Position numbers and translations under genes: made by a program. A DNA stretch of 61,098 nt from Verrucomicrobiota bacterium (lineage in GTDB: Bacteria > Verrucomicrobiota > Verrucomicrobiia > Limisphaerales > UBA1096), in NCBI GenBank assembly GCA_014382705.1, contig JACNJE010000110.1, positions 1-61,098 on the forward strand. The letters run 5' to 3'. Under the pieces are notes generated by a model. It ran no database searches. It saw only the letters and a program-made list of their open reading frames with translations, and was not told the origin of the DNA. Positions 9,472 through 50,477 of the stretch are shown here, in pieces. Numbering within the stretch: position 1 is the stretch's first letter; each line of letters opens with the position of its first letter.

Positions 9472-9475
9472 TCAG

Positions 9476-9499
9476 CCCCCCACTTGGCCAAGCGGGGGG
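9476..9499. repeat. 24-bp near-perfect palindrome CCCCCCACTTGGCCAAGCGGGGGG just after the pntB stop
   Basis: One mismatched pair; starts 4 nt after the TGA at 9469-9471; centred on TTGGCCAA. Lacks an obvious U-tract. Confidence 0.85.
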
Positions 9500-9621
9500 A
9501 GAGTCGCGTCAGCACTCGTGGAGTGCGGTTCTCCGCACCGCTTTTTTGAACGCAGAGAACGCAGAGCCGCAGAGGAGATAAACAATCGTCCTCGTCCTTC
9601 GTACCTCGTCATCGAAAAAAC

Positions 9622-9910
9622 AAACATGGATGGACAGGATGCACAGGAATAATTTTTCCGATCCTGTTCATCCTGCCCATCCATGTTCAATTGAACCGGA
9701 AAACCACCACGAAAAGCACGAAGATCACGAACTGAAAAAAGAAAAACCACGAAGGTCACGAAGAGCACGAAGGAAAGGGAAGGGGAGTGCGCTTGGCCAA
9801 GGGGGAGCCCCGACGGGGCGGCAGGTAATAGCCCGGTGCGTCAGCTCCGGGTAGCCACGCAAAAAAACTAACGAGCCCCAACGGGGCGGCACAATAACGG
9901 GCATGACATA
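9622..9910. repeat. 289-bp tandem repeat unit, copy 1
   Basis: Sequence starting AAACATGGATGGACAGGATGCACAGG recurs 289 bp downstream; identical 74-aa spurious ORFs at 9630 and 9919. Contains a long hairpin (ACATGGATGGACAGGATG...CATCCTGCCCATCCATGT) and GCCCCGACGGGGC. Confidence 0.95.
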
Positions 9911-10199
9911 AAACATGGATGGACAGGATGCACAGGAATAATTTTTCCGATCCTGTTCATCCTGCCCATCCATGTTCAATTGAACCGGAAAACCACCACG
10001 AAAAGCACGAAGATCACGAACTGAAAAAAGAAAAACCACGAAGGTCACGAAGAGCACGAAGGAAAGGGAAGGGGAGTGCGCTTGGCCAAGGGGGAGCCCC
10101 GACGGGGCGGCAGGTAATAGCCCGGTGCGTCAGCTCCGGGTAGCCACGCAAAAAAACTAACGAGCCCCAACGGGGCGGCACAATAACGGGCATGACAAA
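9911..10199. repeat. 289-bp tandem repeat unit, copy 2
   Basis: Essentially identical to 9622-9910; followed by a diverged third start (AAAACATGGATCGACAGGATGAACAGGAT). Confidence 0.95.
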
Positions 10200-10352
10200 A
10201 AACATGGATCGACAGGATGAACAGGATATTTTTTCCGTGGATCAGGGAAGAAGTACGAGGACGATTATCGAAATCCCTCTCTGCGATATTCTGCGCCCTC
10301 TGCGCTTAACCCTGTTATTGGCGTCGATTCGCGTCGATTCGCGGTTTCTGAA

Positions 10353-47571: not shown

Positions 47572-49035
47572 ATGGACGGTCAATTGCAATTTGTTCAACT
47601 CGAGATGATGGTCGCGGCGCTTGGCCTGTTGATTCTGCTCGCCGACCTGTTCCTGCCGTCGACGGCTCGCCGCTCGCTGGGCTGGGTTGCCGCCGGGGCG
47701 CTTGGCCTTGTGTTTCTGCTGAGCTTTCGCGGCGGATACGCCGCCTTGGCCGACGCCGAGGCGTTCGGCGGGATTTACCGACTCGACGCCTTGGCGCTTT
47801 TTTTCAAACGCTTCTTTTTGCTTTCGGCGATCTTTGTGCTCGTGTTCGCGGTGGACTTCGCCGCGCGATTGAGGGGCGGCGTGTCGGAGTATCTCGCGTT
47901 CATCCTGTTCGCGTTGACGGGAATGATGTTCGCCTCGTCGGCCAACGACTTTAGCCTGTTGTTCGTCTCGATTGAGTTGATCACGGTGACGTTTTACATT
48001 CTCGTCAGCTTTCAGCGGCATCGGCTGCACTCTCTCGAGGCGGGGGTGAAATATCTTATCCTCGGTGCCGTGTCGTCGGCGTTTTTGGTGTACGGCATTG
48101 CGCTCGTGTTCGGCGAGGCCGGGAGTCTCAAGTTCGACGCGATCCGCGCCGCGCACGCCGGGTTGCTGGGGAGCAACGTGTTCTTGTTTGGGATGTTGTT
48201 CGTGTTCGCTGGGCTGGCGTTTAAGATTTCCGCGTTCCCGTTTCAGGTGTGGGCACCGGATGTTTATCAGGGCGCGCCGACGCCCACGACGACGTTTCTC
48301 GCGGTCGGCTCGAAGGCGGCCGGCTTCGTGCTCCTGATCCGCCTGTTCGGCAGCGTCGTTCCGGAACTCACCGCCCAGTGGACGGGCATGCTGATGGTGG
48401 TTGCTGCGCTGACAATTTTGTACGGCAACCTCTGCGCCGTGCCGCAGCGCAATCTCAAACGGCTGTTGGCCTATTCCGGCATCGCCAACGCCGGCTACCT
48501 GCTGATGGGCATCGTGGCCCAGTCGGACGACGGCAAGGCGGCGATTTTGTATTACCTCGCCGGATACCTGTTCACGCTTGTGGCGACGTTCATGATCATC
48601 CATCTCATCACCAGCGAAGGGGAAGGGGAGGACATCGCCTGTCTCGCCGGGCTGAACAAACGCTCGCCGTTCCTGGCATTCGTGCTGGCGTTGTGCTCCG
48701 TGTCGCTCGCCGGCATCCCACCGTTGGCCGGGTTCTTCGGCAAATTTCTGCTGGTGAAATCGGTTGCCGCCAAGGCGTTCGGCGACGCCGGTTACTTCGC
48801 GCTGCTGGCCGTGGCAGTGTTCGGAGTCGTCGTGTCGATCTACTACTACTTCGGCATCATTCGCGCCATTTATTGGCCGAAAGACACCTCCGACGACTCG
48901 CCGGTACCGATCGCTTGGCCAACACGAATCGCGCTTGGCCTCTGCGTCGCGGCGATCCTTTATCTCGGTCTGCTGCCCGATAAACCGATTAACTGGGCCA
49001 ACGCCGCCGCCAAGATCGAGTCTGCTCCCGACTAA
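47572..49035 (+). CDS. nuoN: NADH-quinone oxidoreductase subunit N (cluster 2)
   Basis: HSLEAGVKYLILGAVSSAFLVYGIALVFG, VWAPDVYQGAPTPTTTFLAVGSKAAGF, GIPPLAGFFGKFLL. Confidence 0.95.
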   Translation: MDGQLQFVQLEMMVAALGLLILLADLFLPSTARRSLGWVAAGALGLVFLLSFRGGYAALADAEAFGGIYRLDALALFFKRFFLLSAIFVLVFAVDFAARLRGGVSEYLAFILFALTGMMFASSANDFSLLFVSIELITVTFYILVSFQRHRLHSLEAGVKYLILGAVSSAFLVYGIALVFGEAGSLKFDAIRAAHAGLLGSNVFLFGMLFVFAGLAFKISAFPFQVWAPDVYQGAPTPTTTFLAVGSKAAGFVLLIRLFGSVVPELTAQWTGMLMVVAALTILYGNLCAVPQRNLKRLLAYSGIANAGYLLMGIVAQSDDGKAAILYYLAGYLFTLVATFMIIHLITSEGEGEDIACLAGLNKRSPFLAFVLALCSVSLAGIPPLAGFFGKFLLVKSVAAKAFGDAGYFALLAVAVFGVVVSIYYYFGIIRAIYWPKDTSDDSPVPIAWPTRIALGLCVAAILYLGLLPDKPINWANAAAKIESAPD

Positions 49036-49078
49036 ACGCAGTGGGCGCGGAGTACCCAAATTCGTCCTCGACCAGAAA

Positions 49079-49345
49079 CTCACGCGAAGCCGCGAAGCCG
49101 CGAAGAAGCATCAATATCAACCGCGAATGGACGCCAATGAACGCGAAAAGAGAGAAATGAACATCGATGGCCAGGATGGACAGGAAGGAATCCGCAGATG
49201 ACGCAGATGATCGCAGATTAAAACAGGAAACAAATCTGCGCTCATCTGCGGATAAACAATCCTTCGCGTCCATTCGAGTCCATTTGCGGTTCCCCCCTCT
49301 CTTTCTTTTCTTCGCGGCTTCGCGCCTTCGCGTGAAAAACCCTTT
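49079..49345. repeat. nested mirror-ordered inverted repeat block between convergent nuoN and dprA
   Basis: CACGCGAAGCCGCGAAGCCGCGAAGAAG ... CGCGAATGGACGCCAATGAACGCGAA ... CCGCAGATGACGCAGATGATCGCAGATT ... AAATCTGCGCTCATCTGCGG ... TTCGCGTCCATTCGAGTCCATTTGCGG ... CTTCGCGGCTTCGCGCCTTCGCGTG. Confidence 0.85.
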
Positions 49346-49376
49346 CAGCAGCCCTCTGCGTTTTTAATCCGCGGAA

Positions 49377-50477
49377 TCAGCGGCGGGTGAAAAGTTTACC
49401 GGGGAGTTGCTTGGCCAAGCGCTTCATCTCCAGCCCGAGTAGCGCCACCGAAACTGTCGGCGTGGGCAGTCCGCTTTGGGCGATAATCGTGTCGATTGGT
49501 TGTTCGGTGGCGTCGAGAACGTCGAACACCGCCTGCTCCTGCTCCGTAAGATTGGCCAACGGCACCGGCTCCGCTTCATCCGCTTGGCCAGGCGCTTGGC
49601 CAAGCGCAAGATGCTCAAACTCGGTGAGGATGTCGTCGGCGTTCTCGCACAGCGCGGCCCCGTTGCGGATGAGGTTGTGGCAGCCGCGGCTTTGCGGTGA
49701 GTCGATCCGGCCCGGCACGGCGAACACCTGCCGGTTGTTGTCGGCGGCCATGTTGGCGGTGATCAGCGAGCCGCTTTTCAAGTCGGCCTCGACGACCACC
49801 GTGCCGAGCGTCATCCCGGCGACGATGCGGTTGCGGATCGGGAAGCTCTGCTTGTCGCCCTTCCGGTTGAACGGGAACTGGGTGATCACTGCGCCGTTGT
49901 CGGCGATGCGCCCGTACAACTCCGCGTTCTCCGCCGGGTAAACGATGTTGATGCCGTTGCCGAGCACGGCGACCGTGCGCCCCTTGCCCGAGAGCGCGCC
50001 TTGGTGCGAGGCGGAGTCGATGCCGCGCGCGCCGCCGCTGACCACCGTGACACCGTGCCCGGCGAGTTGGTAGGCCAACTTGCGGGCGGCGTCCTGCCCG
50101 TAATGCGTCGTGCGCCGAGCGCCGACCATGGCGATGCTGTTTTTGTCTCCCGGCAGCAGGCGGCCCTTCACGTAAAGGAGGATTGGAGGATCGTAAATCT
50201 CGCGAAGCAACTCCGGGTATTCATCATCGGCCTGAAACACAAGCCGCGCACCGAACTCCTCCACGCGCTTCAATTCCCCGGCCAAGTCGGTGGTGGATTG
50301 CCACTGGACGATCGTGCCGGCCAGGTCGTCGCCGATACCCTTGACGCGCACCAGCGCCGAGCGGTTCGCCTGCAGCACCTTTGCTGCATCGCCGAAAAAC
50401 TCGAGCAACTGCCGCACCCGAACCGGCCCGATCCCCTCGAGCAGATTCAACACCACCAAAGCCTCGCGCGCGTCCAC
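49377..50477 (-). CDS. dprA: DNA-processing protein DprA
   Basis: IAMVGARRTTHYGQDAARKLAYQLAGHGVTVVSGGARGIDSASHQGALSGKGRTVAVLGNGINIVYPAEN, VVVEADLKSGSLITANMAADNNRQVFAVPGRIDSPQSRGCHNLIRNGA. Confidence 0.95.
   Translation of the reverse strand: MDAREALVVLNLLEGIGPVRVRQLLEFFGDAAKVLQANRSALVRVKGIGDDLAGTIVQWQSTTDLAGELKRVEEFGARLVFQADDEYPELLREIYDPPILLYVKGRLLPGDKNSIAMVGARRTTHYGQDAARKLAYQLAGHGVTVVSGGARGIDSASHQGALSGKGRTVAVLGNGINIVYPAENAELYGRIADNGAVITQFPFNRKGDKQSFPIRNRIVAGMTLGTVVVEADLKSGSLITANMAADNNRQVFAVPGRIDSPQSRGCHNLIRNGAALCENADDILTEFEHLALGQAPGQADEAEPVPLANLTEQEQAVFDVLDATEQPIDTIIAQSGLPTPTVSVALLGLEMKRLAKQLPGKLFTRR

Follow-up and report, generated by a model that had tools for sequence, protein, structure and literature searches.

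An inverted-repeat block between nuoN and dprA is probably a nest of inserted elements related to GxxExxY nuclease genes

The block that separates the convergent nuoN and dprA genes of a Verrucomicrobiota bacterium is interpreted here, with a probability of a little over 70%, as a set of nested inverted-repeat elements (C inside B inside A, together with a fragment of D) that were inserted at this junction and are related to GxxExxY genes. The three nested parts are most likely ORF-less relatives of GxxExxY elements. The window, to which all bare coordinates refer, is the whole stretch of DNA analysed (61,098 nucleotides).

Results

Architecture of the block

The first-pass annotation had described a mirror-ordered A-B-C-C'-B'-A' block between convergent genes. 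The neighbours were confirmed as nuoN (+) on the left and dprA (-) on the right, and all three arm pairs were recovered at that place in strictly nested order:

47572..49035, + strand: nuoN-like gene (NADH:quinone oxidoreductase/Mrp antiporter subunit), left neighbour; PF00361 Proton_antipo_M, E 6.8e-67
49034-49046, + strand: outermost weak arm AAACGCAGTGGGC; partner 49351-49363, 92%
49036..49374, unstranded: entire insert of 338-339 bp, by comparison with the empty sites of G016, G014, G010, G003 and G015; ends +/- few bases
49080-49107, + strand: phrase A left arm TCACGCGAAGCCGCGAAGCCGCGAAGAA; partner 49308-49335, 28 nt, 96% complementary
49119-49147, + strand: phrase B left arm AACCGCGAATGGACGCCAATGAACGCGAA; partner 49263-49291, 29 nt, 86%
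49159-49187, + strand: phrase D half-arm AACATCGATGGCCAGGATGGACAGGAAGG, between B and C, without an intact right partner
49190-49219, + strand: phrase C left arm ATCCGCAGATGACGCAGATGATCGCAGATT, innermost hairpin
49220-49232, unstranded: loop of the C hairpin AAAACAGGAAACA, without ORF
49233-49253, - strand: phrase C right arm, two paired segments
49263-49291, - strand: phrase B right arm TTCGCGTCCATTCGAGTCCATTTGCGGTT, pairing with 49119-49147
49308-49335, - strand: phrase A right arm, pairing with 49080-49107
49377..50477, - strand: dprA, right neighbour; PF02481, E 9.6e-77

Phrase C pairs along 49202-49219/49233-49250 (18 nt, 94%) and additionally along 49190-49201/49242-49253 (12 nt, 100%). 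Beyond the three mirrored pairs, a left half-arm of phrase D, read AACATCGATGGCCAGGATGGACAGGA, sits between B and C. The phrases form one class, in which 2-4 tandem units of about 8-10 nt, mostly CRCRRAK and usually headed by AACC or ATCC, face an inverted copy. The block itself contains no ORF and hence no GxxExxY gene.

The predicted hairpin or cruciform potential was borne out in silico, as the single-strand fold of 49060-49365 reached -133.6 kcal/mol compared to -83.5 +/- 5.1 for shuffled sequences (z = -9.9). The real gap nests to a depth of 3, and none of 2000 dinucleotide-preserving shuffles nested deeper than 1, which rules out a chance origin. A CRISPR reading was rejected because regular spacers are absent. 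The block matched no Rfam family, and its comparison with plasmids returned no match.

The block is missing from the same junction in five of nine relatives

Nine genomes of the same genus carry nuoN and dprA as convergent neighbours; the gap of one (G013) consists of N. Five of the nine, those listed above as empty sites, have only tens of nucleotides between the two genes, free of repeats, which marks the block as an insertion specific to this lineage. In the empty sites TAA is followed directly by ATCAGCGGCGGGCGAAGAG, and the resident genome reads TAA, the insert and then ATCAGCGGCGGGTGAAAAG. No target-site duplication is readable at the insertion junctions, where the relatives are diverged. 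Since a decayed C/c pair with a b remnant persists in G012, and other decayed repeat remnants in G018 and perhaps G011, the insertion may predate the species or the gap may have been hit repeatedly.

The same nested layout had been claimed for the other expanded convergent gap of the window:

9472..10352, unstranded: second expanded convergent gap (pntB/nuoM-like), 881 bp compared to about 40-60 bp in G016, G012 and G018
9550..9576, + strand: phrase F left arm ACGCAGAGAACGCAGAGCCGCAGAGG; partner around 10276-10308
9623..9687, unstranded: phrase D hairpin; second copy at 9912-9976, within a 289-bp duplication

Related phrases do occur in this 9.5-10.3 kb gap, but the layout is less clean, with F/f and D/d outer hairpins and 289 bp duplicated perfectly in tandem (9622-9910 and 9911-10199, 100% identity), either recently or as an artefact of assembly. 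Directly after pntB (9476-9499) lies a short inverted repeat rich in GC, CCCCCCACTTGGCCAAGCGGGGGG, which has a counterpart in G016. Two matches to the Rfam family Acido-Lenti-1 (RF01687, called an sRNA) fall inside the duplication, at 9806-9851 and 10095-10140 on the - strand. The arm of this motif, AGCCCCAACGGGGCGGCA, forms a perfect inverted pair elsewhere (L018 16023-16270), which raises the possibility that Acido-Lenti-1 is a mobile repeat and not an sRNA.

Repeat-bearing gaps other than nuoN/dprA, namely this one and those on contigs C169 and C8, are much shorter and phrase-free in most of the relatives compared. The shortness of all these gaps in relatives identifies the repeat blocks as insertions. 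Relatives thus differ by presence or absence at the same site in the nuoN/dprA gap, in the 9.5-10.3 kb gap and at an element on contig C107. The latter, a GxxExxY gene between two hairpins, measures 533 bp where 16-22 nt separate the same genes in eight relatives; this shows that it was gained as a unit, many losses being the less simple alternative.

Distribution of the phrases in the resident genome

We sampled 1.2 Mb of the 4.0-Mb genome, in which a home-made codon-usage caller defined 946 genes separated by 91 convergent, 546 tandem and 92 divergent gaps. Phrase families A-G gave 65 intergenic matches and none in genes, which rules out a coding repeat; a pattern match in Oscillospiraceae (L165) resembles a coding repeat and is unrelated. 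Phrases were found in 14 tandem, 8 convergent and 1 divergent gaps, an enrichment in convergent gaps (8/91 versus 15/638, p = 0.004). Among gaps of at least 60 bp, long inverted repeats were present in 16 of 43 convergent gaps compared to 27 of 252 tandem and 4 of 84 divergent ones (p = 5e-5 and 5e-6). The phrases favour convergent gaps and avoid divergent ones, and mirror order is not the rule: several tandem gaps are ordered E-B-C-c, and the mirrored b and e are absent. The scan of the 43 convergent gaps for nested mirrors, proposed to reveal a general layout, found three-deep nesting in this block only, once in 1.2 Mb. The first-pass annotation had also named a finding that would count against its idea of a 3'-end structure, namely phrases equally common, without mirrored order, in tandem or divergent gaps. 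This is largely what we observed, yet the convergent enrichment persists.

Eight gaps hold at least two phrase families where 2.0 are expected; with contig C171 left out, the figures are 3 and 0.8 (p = 0.03). On C171 (L059, L060), about nine C hairpins lie in gaps along the contig, several of them preceded by E and B arms, and these hairpins are adjoined by the common tracts AAACTGAGAACTGAGAACTG and GGATGAAGGATGAAGG. A fixed E-B-C order was dropped as a rule, because it comes mainly from C171, where the gaps seem duplicated, and because C is usually alone elsewhere. Copies of phrases C and D form hairpins at many sites, and A and B occur solely as distant pairs. As no short-loop hairpin of B arms exists in the sample, B may be what is left of a complete element and not a miniature.

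Other repeats are present as well. The 14-bp palindrome CGCTTGGCCAAGCG is strongly over-represented, with copies in 113 of 729 gaps, counting margins of 20 nt, and 236 intragenic copies in the 1.2 Mb; in the window it occurs, for example, at 9483, 9792 and 10081. It resembles HIP1 of cyanobacteria, likewise a highly iterated palindrome. Further dispersed inverted repeats unlike the phrases, such as GGGGCGAGTTCCACCTCGCCCC and CCCTCTCCCGCTGGGAGAGGG, occupy many gaps (e.g. L335 760-1280, L052 8180-8460).

Phrase C is shared by distant phyla

Phrase C is dispersed, occurring at 16 places with at most 3 mismatches, compared to none for the reversed control. Its occurrence in the order is patchy (10 of 196 genomes). 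At least 120 stretches in the species-level collection of genomes contain an exact copy, where about 0.04 would be expected by chance according to our own estimate. The hosts comprise Verrucomicrobia, Planctomycetes, Acidobacteria, Chloroflexi, Nitrospirae, Gammaproteobacteria, Bacteroidota, Latescibacterota, Hydrogenedentota and others, and many of the dispersed copies are complete hairpins in tight gaps. The exact phrase was absent from viral contigs, and the phrase strings had no relevant match in the open-access literature searched.

Most GxxExxY genes lie between inverted phrase arrays

On contigs C24 and C121, the expanded gaps contain an ORF between inverted C phrases and inverted B phrases, respectively. 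Both ORFs encode GxxExxY proteins (NCBIfam TIGR04256, E 1.8e-40 and 1.1e-35; Pfam PF13366 PDDEXK_3), a family of the PD-(D/E)XK superfamily. The resident genome has four genes matching TIGR04256 far above the cut-off, and all four are bordered on both sides by inverted phrase arrays of a different type each.

This arrangement was then scored across the order, where 167 of 245 genomes have GxxExxY genes, as the best complementarity between 220-nt flanks, with windows shifted within the same loci as control. A score of at least 16 was reached by 27 of 28 genes, with a median of 23 compared to 11 in the shifted controls (p = 1e-14, 28 genes), and the paired stretches clearly belong to the class described above (AACCACGAAGGACACGAAG, ACCGCGGAGACGCGGAGG, AACCACAGAGGCACAGAG, ATCCGCAGATTACGCAGAT). 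A cross-phylum set was assembled from 27 genomes found via phrase-C contigs of other phyla, 23 of which have GxxExxY genes (33 loci). Here the medians were 21 and 12 (p = 2e-9, 33 loci); about two thirds of the genes are flanked and about one third are without clear flank repeats. A gammaproteobacterial gene carries TTAACATGGATGTACAGGATAAACAGGAT, which is phrase D, at both sides, and the flanks of a copy on a Bernardetia plasmid look alike by eye (CACAGAG units). These results demonstrate that GxxExxY genes are flanked by repeats of this class. Viral contigs yielded only two GxxExxY loci; together with the absence of the exact C phrase there, this indicates that phages are not the main carriers.

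At four loci (L348 1449-1530, L350, L125, L181), the flanking phrases read through into the GxxExxY frame, giving tails such as NNPQMTQRSAD and NNREWTPMDAN. Annotated GxxExxY termini may therefore be repeat DNA.

Repeat type and protein vary together

Phrases of the block match the flanks of individual GxxExxY genes. Phrase B scored 19 against the flanks of the C121 gene (L350; shuffled maximum 13), phrase C scored 25 against those of the C24 gene (L348; shuffled maximum 12), and phrase D scored 17 and 16 against the flanks of the C107 gene (L347) and of a gammaproteobacterial GxxExxY gene (L385), respectively (shuffled maximum 14), demonstrating that these repeats have cognate genes. For phrase A, no cognate gene was found among the resident flanks, and the outermost pair scored 11, the shuffle level. 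The variant TTCGAGTCCATTTGCG is common to the B right arm of the block and the right arm next to the C121 gene, so that the left and right ends of B differ consistently, as for a defined element end.

Repeat similarity rises with GxxExxY identity. In the order, the Mantel correlation was r = 0.62 (0 of 5000 permutations), and r = 0.31 (p = 0.005) when the set was thinned to one protein per 60% identity; the cross-phylum values were 0.43 (0 of 5000) and, after thinning, 0.26 (p = 0.012). Repeat and protein thus co-vary; part of this signal may stem from elements being inherited as wholes and not from recognition.

The GxxExxY protein

An alignment of nine GxxExxY sequences shows invariant G..E..Y, D, the K of (E/D)xK, and Q...Y, which we take to be the layout of RecB/Cas4-type PD-(D/E)XK nucleases. 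A sequence search of the PDB returned nothing significant. An AlphaFold model built from 6 sequences (mean pLDDT 80) gave as its best PDB matches a lambda-type alkaline exonuclease (E 1.6e-3) and the Cas4-like SSO0001 (E 3.3e-3), with a TM of about 0.5; these marginal matches of a predicted structure hint at a Cas4/lambda-exonuclease-like fold. No function is stated for the family in the open-access literature or library family names searched, and the papers in that literature that name it make no link to repeats or mobility.

Discussion

A possible route to the mirror order

We infer that the GxxExxY nuclease is the mover of these repeats. It would recognise its own hairpin repeats and then cut or process them, and repair at the cut, or at a hairpin at the replication fork, would place copies of the element elsewhere between genes. 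Where such a copy landed in the loop of an older element, the mirror order would arise; we assume this course rather than a larger element that lost its ORF and then received a further insertion. In its broadest form the proposal attributes to GxxExxY proteins, as PD-(D/E)XK nucleases, an unrecognised class of selfish DNA that crosses phyla: each protein would recognise its own tandem-unit hairpin and spread ORF-less copies through intergenic DNA, also into one another, without a transposase or recombinase. We hold this form tentatively, at slightly less than even odds.

Alternative explanations

The block could instead act as a bidirectional transcription terminator or stabilise mRNA 3' ends, under selection where genes converge, the general role suggested by the first-pass annotation. 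Its hairpin potential is very strong, and both long inverted repeats and phrases are enriched in convergent gaps; like bidirectional intrinsic terminators of convergent genes, it also has the expected position. However, it is far longer than such a terminator needs to be and is not conserved at the junction, being missing in five close relatives, and the second gap is reduced to about 40-60 bp in relatives. The three-deep nesting is unique in the sample, 14 tandem gaps hold phrases that are often unmirrored, and a scarcity in divergent gaps would result just as well from the loss of insertions into promoters. The generalisation to a common 3'-end structure does not survive these comparisons, and we consider selection for such a role improbable, although the block might have a secondary terminating effect. 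Far less probable still is a palindrome that grew in place from a seed hairpin by replication slippage and template switching, with no mobile elements. Short tandem units in inverted order are classic products of template switching, and the other gap does contain a tandem duplication, but the recurrence of the same phrases at many unrelated sites and in distant phyla contradicts it, and clean insertions at several gaps also argue against it. The number of units may nevertheless have grown in place.

A closer competitor retains mobility and assigns it to another system, for instance a RAYT or an IS200/IS605-type transposase, the GxxExxY genes being passengers in the hairpins. The architecture is indeed closely like that of REPIN/RAYT (PMC3116915), and our literature search found no assay of GxxExxY activity. 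Yet passengers would not be expected to carry a repeat type that co-varies with their clade, as seen in the order and across phyla, nor does the flanking of 27 of 28 genes favour this reading, and the arms seen here are without a terminal GTAG or CGTC tag. We regard the passenger explanation as unlikely, if less so than a terminator. Insertion of nested elements related to GxxExxY genes remains our preferred reading.

Significance

The proposed GxxExxY element, a gene between inverted arrays of tandem units, fits the resident genes, 27 of 28 genes order-wide and about two thirds elsewhere, which suggests that the repeats flanking these little-studied nuclease genes in many phyla are an overlooked class of selfish DNA. 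The link gives the protein family a testable substrate, accounts for a large class of environmental intergenic repeats, and would constitute a second independent REPIN/RAYT-like pairing, built on a different enzyme. Such hairpins, possibly including the Acido-Lenti-1 motif, can be mistaken for terminators or small RNAs.

Comparison with known systems

REPINs are REP doublets that form hairpins and occur with REP-associated tyrosine transposases, the RAYTs (PMC3116915). As in that system, we find dispersed intergenic inverted doublets that fold as hairpins, a separate gene of low copy number next to its cognate repeats or between them, and several repeat flavours per genome, each with its own gene and many solo copies per gene. 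The two differ in that the RAYT gene encodes a Y1 HUH transposase and the flanked gene here is GxxExxY/PDDEXK_3, and in that the arms here are tandem 8-10-nt units with identical phrase types in many phyla. REP palindromes are described in PMC3733652 as carrying a GTAG or CGTC tetranucleotide at one end. By inspection of the sequences read, this tag is absent and the arms begin with AACC, ATCC or similar. With an unrelated nuclease as the flanked gene and the terminal tag missing, the block does not belong to the REPIN/RAYT system.

MITEs are likewise short, ORF-less, multicopy and intergenic, with empty sites in relatives, and share their inverted repeats with a coding element, as B, C and D match resident GxxExxY flanks above shuffles. 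Unlike MITEs, the arms here are tandem micro-repeats rather than unique terminal repeats, and there is no DDE transposase; as for the target-site duplication of MITEs, none was seen here, the junctions being diverged in relatives. By analogy, the block may work like REPIN/RAYT, or like a MITE with its helper.
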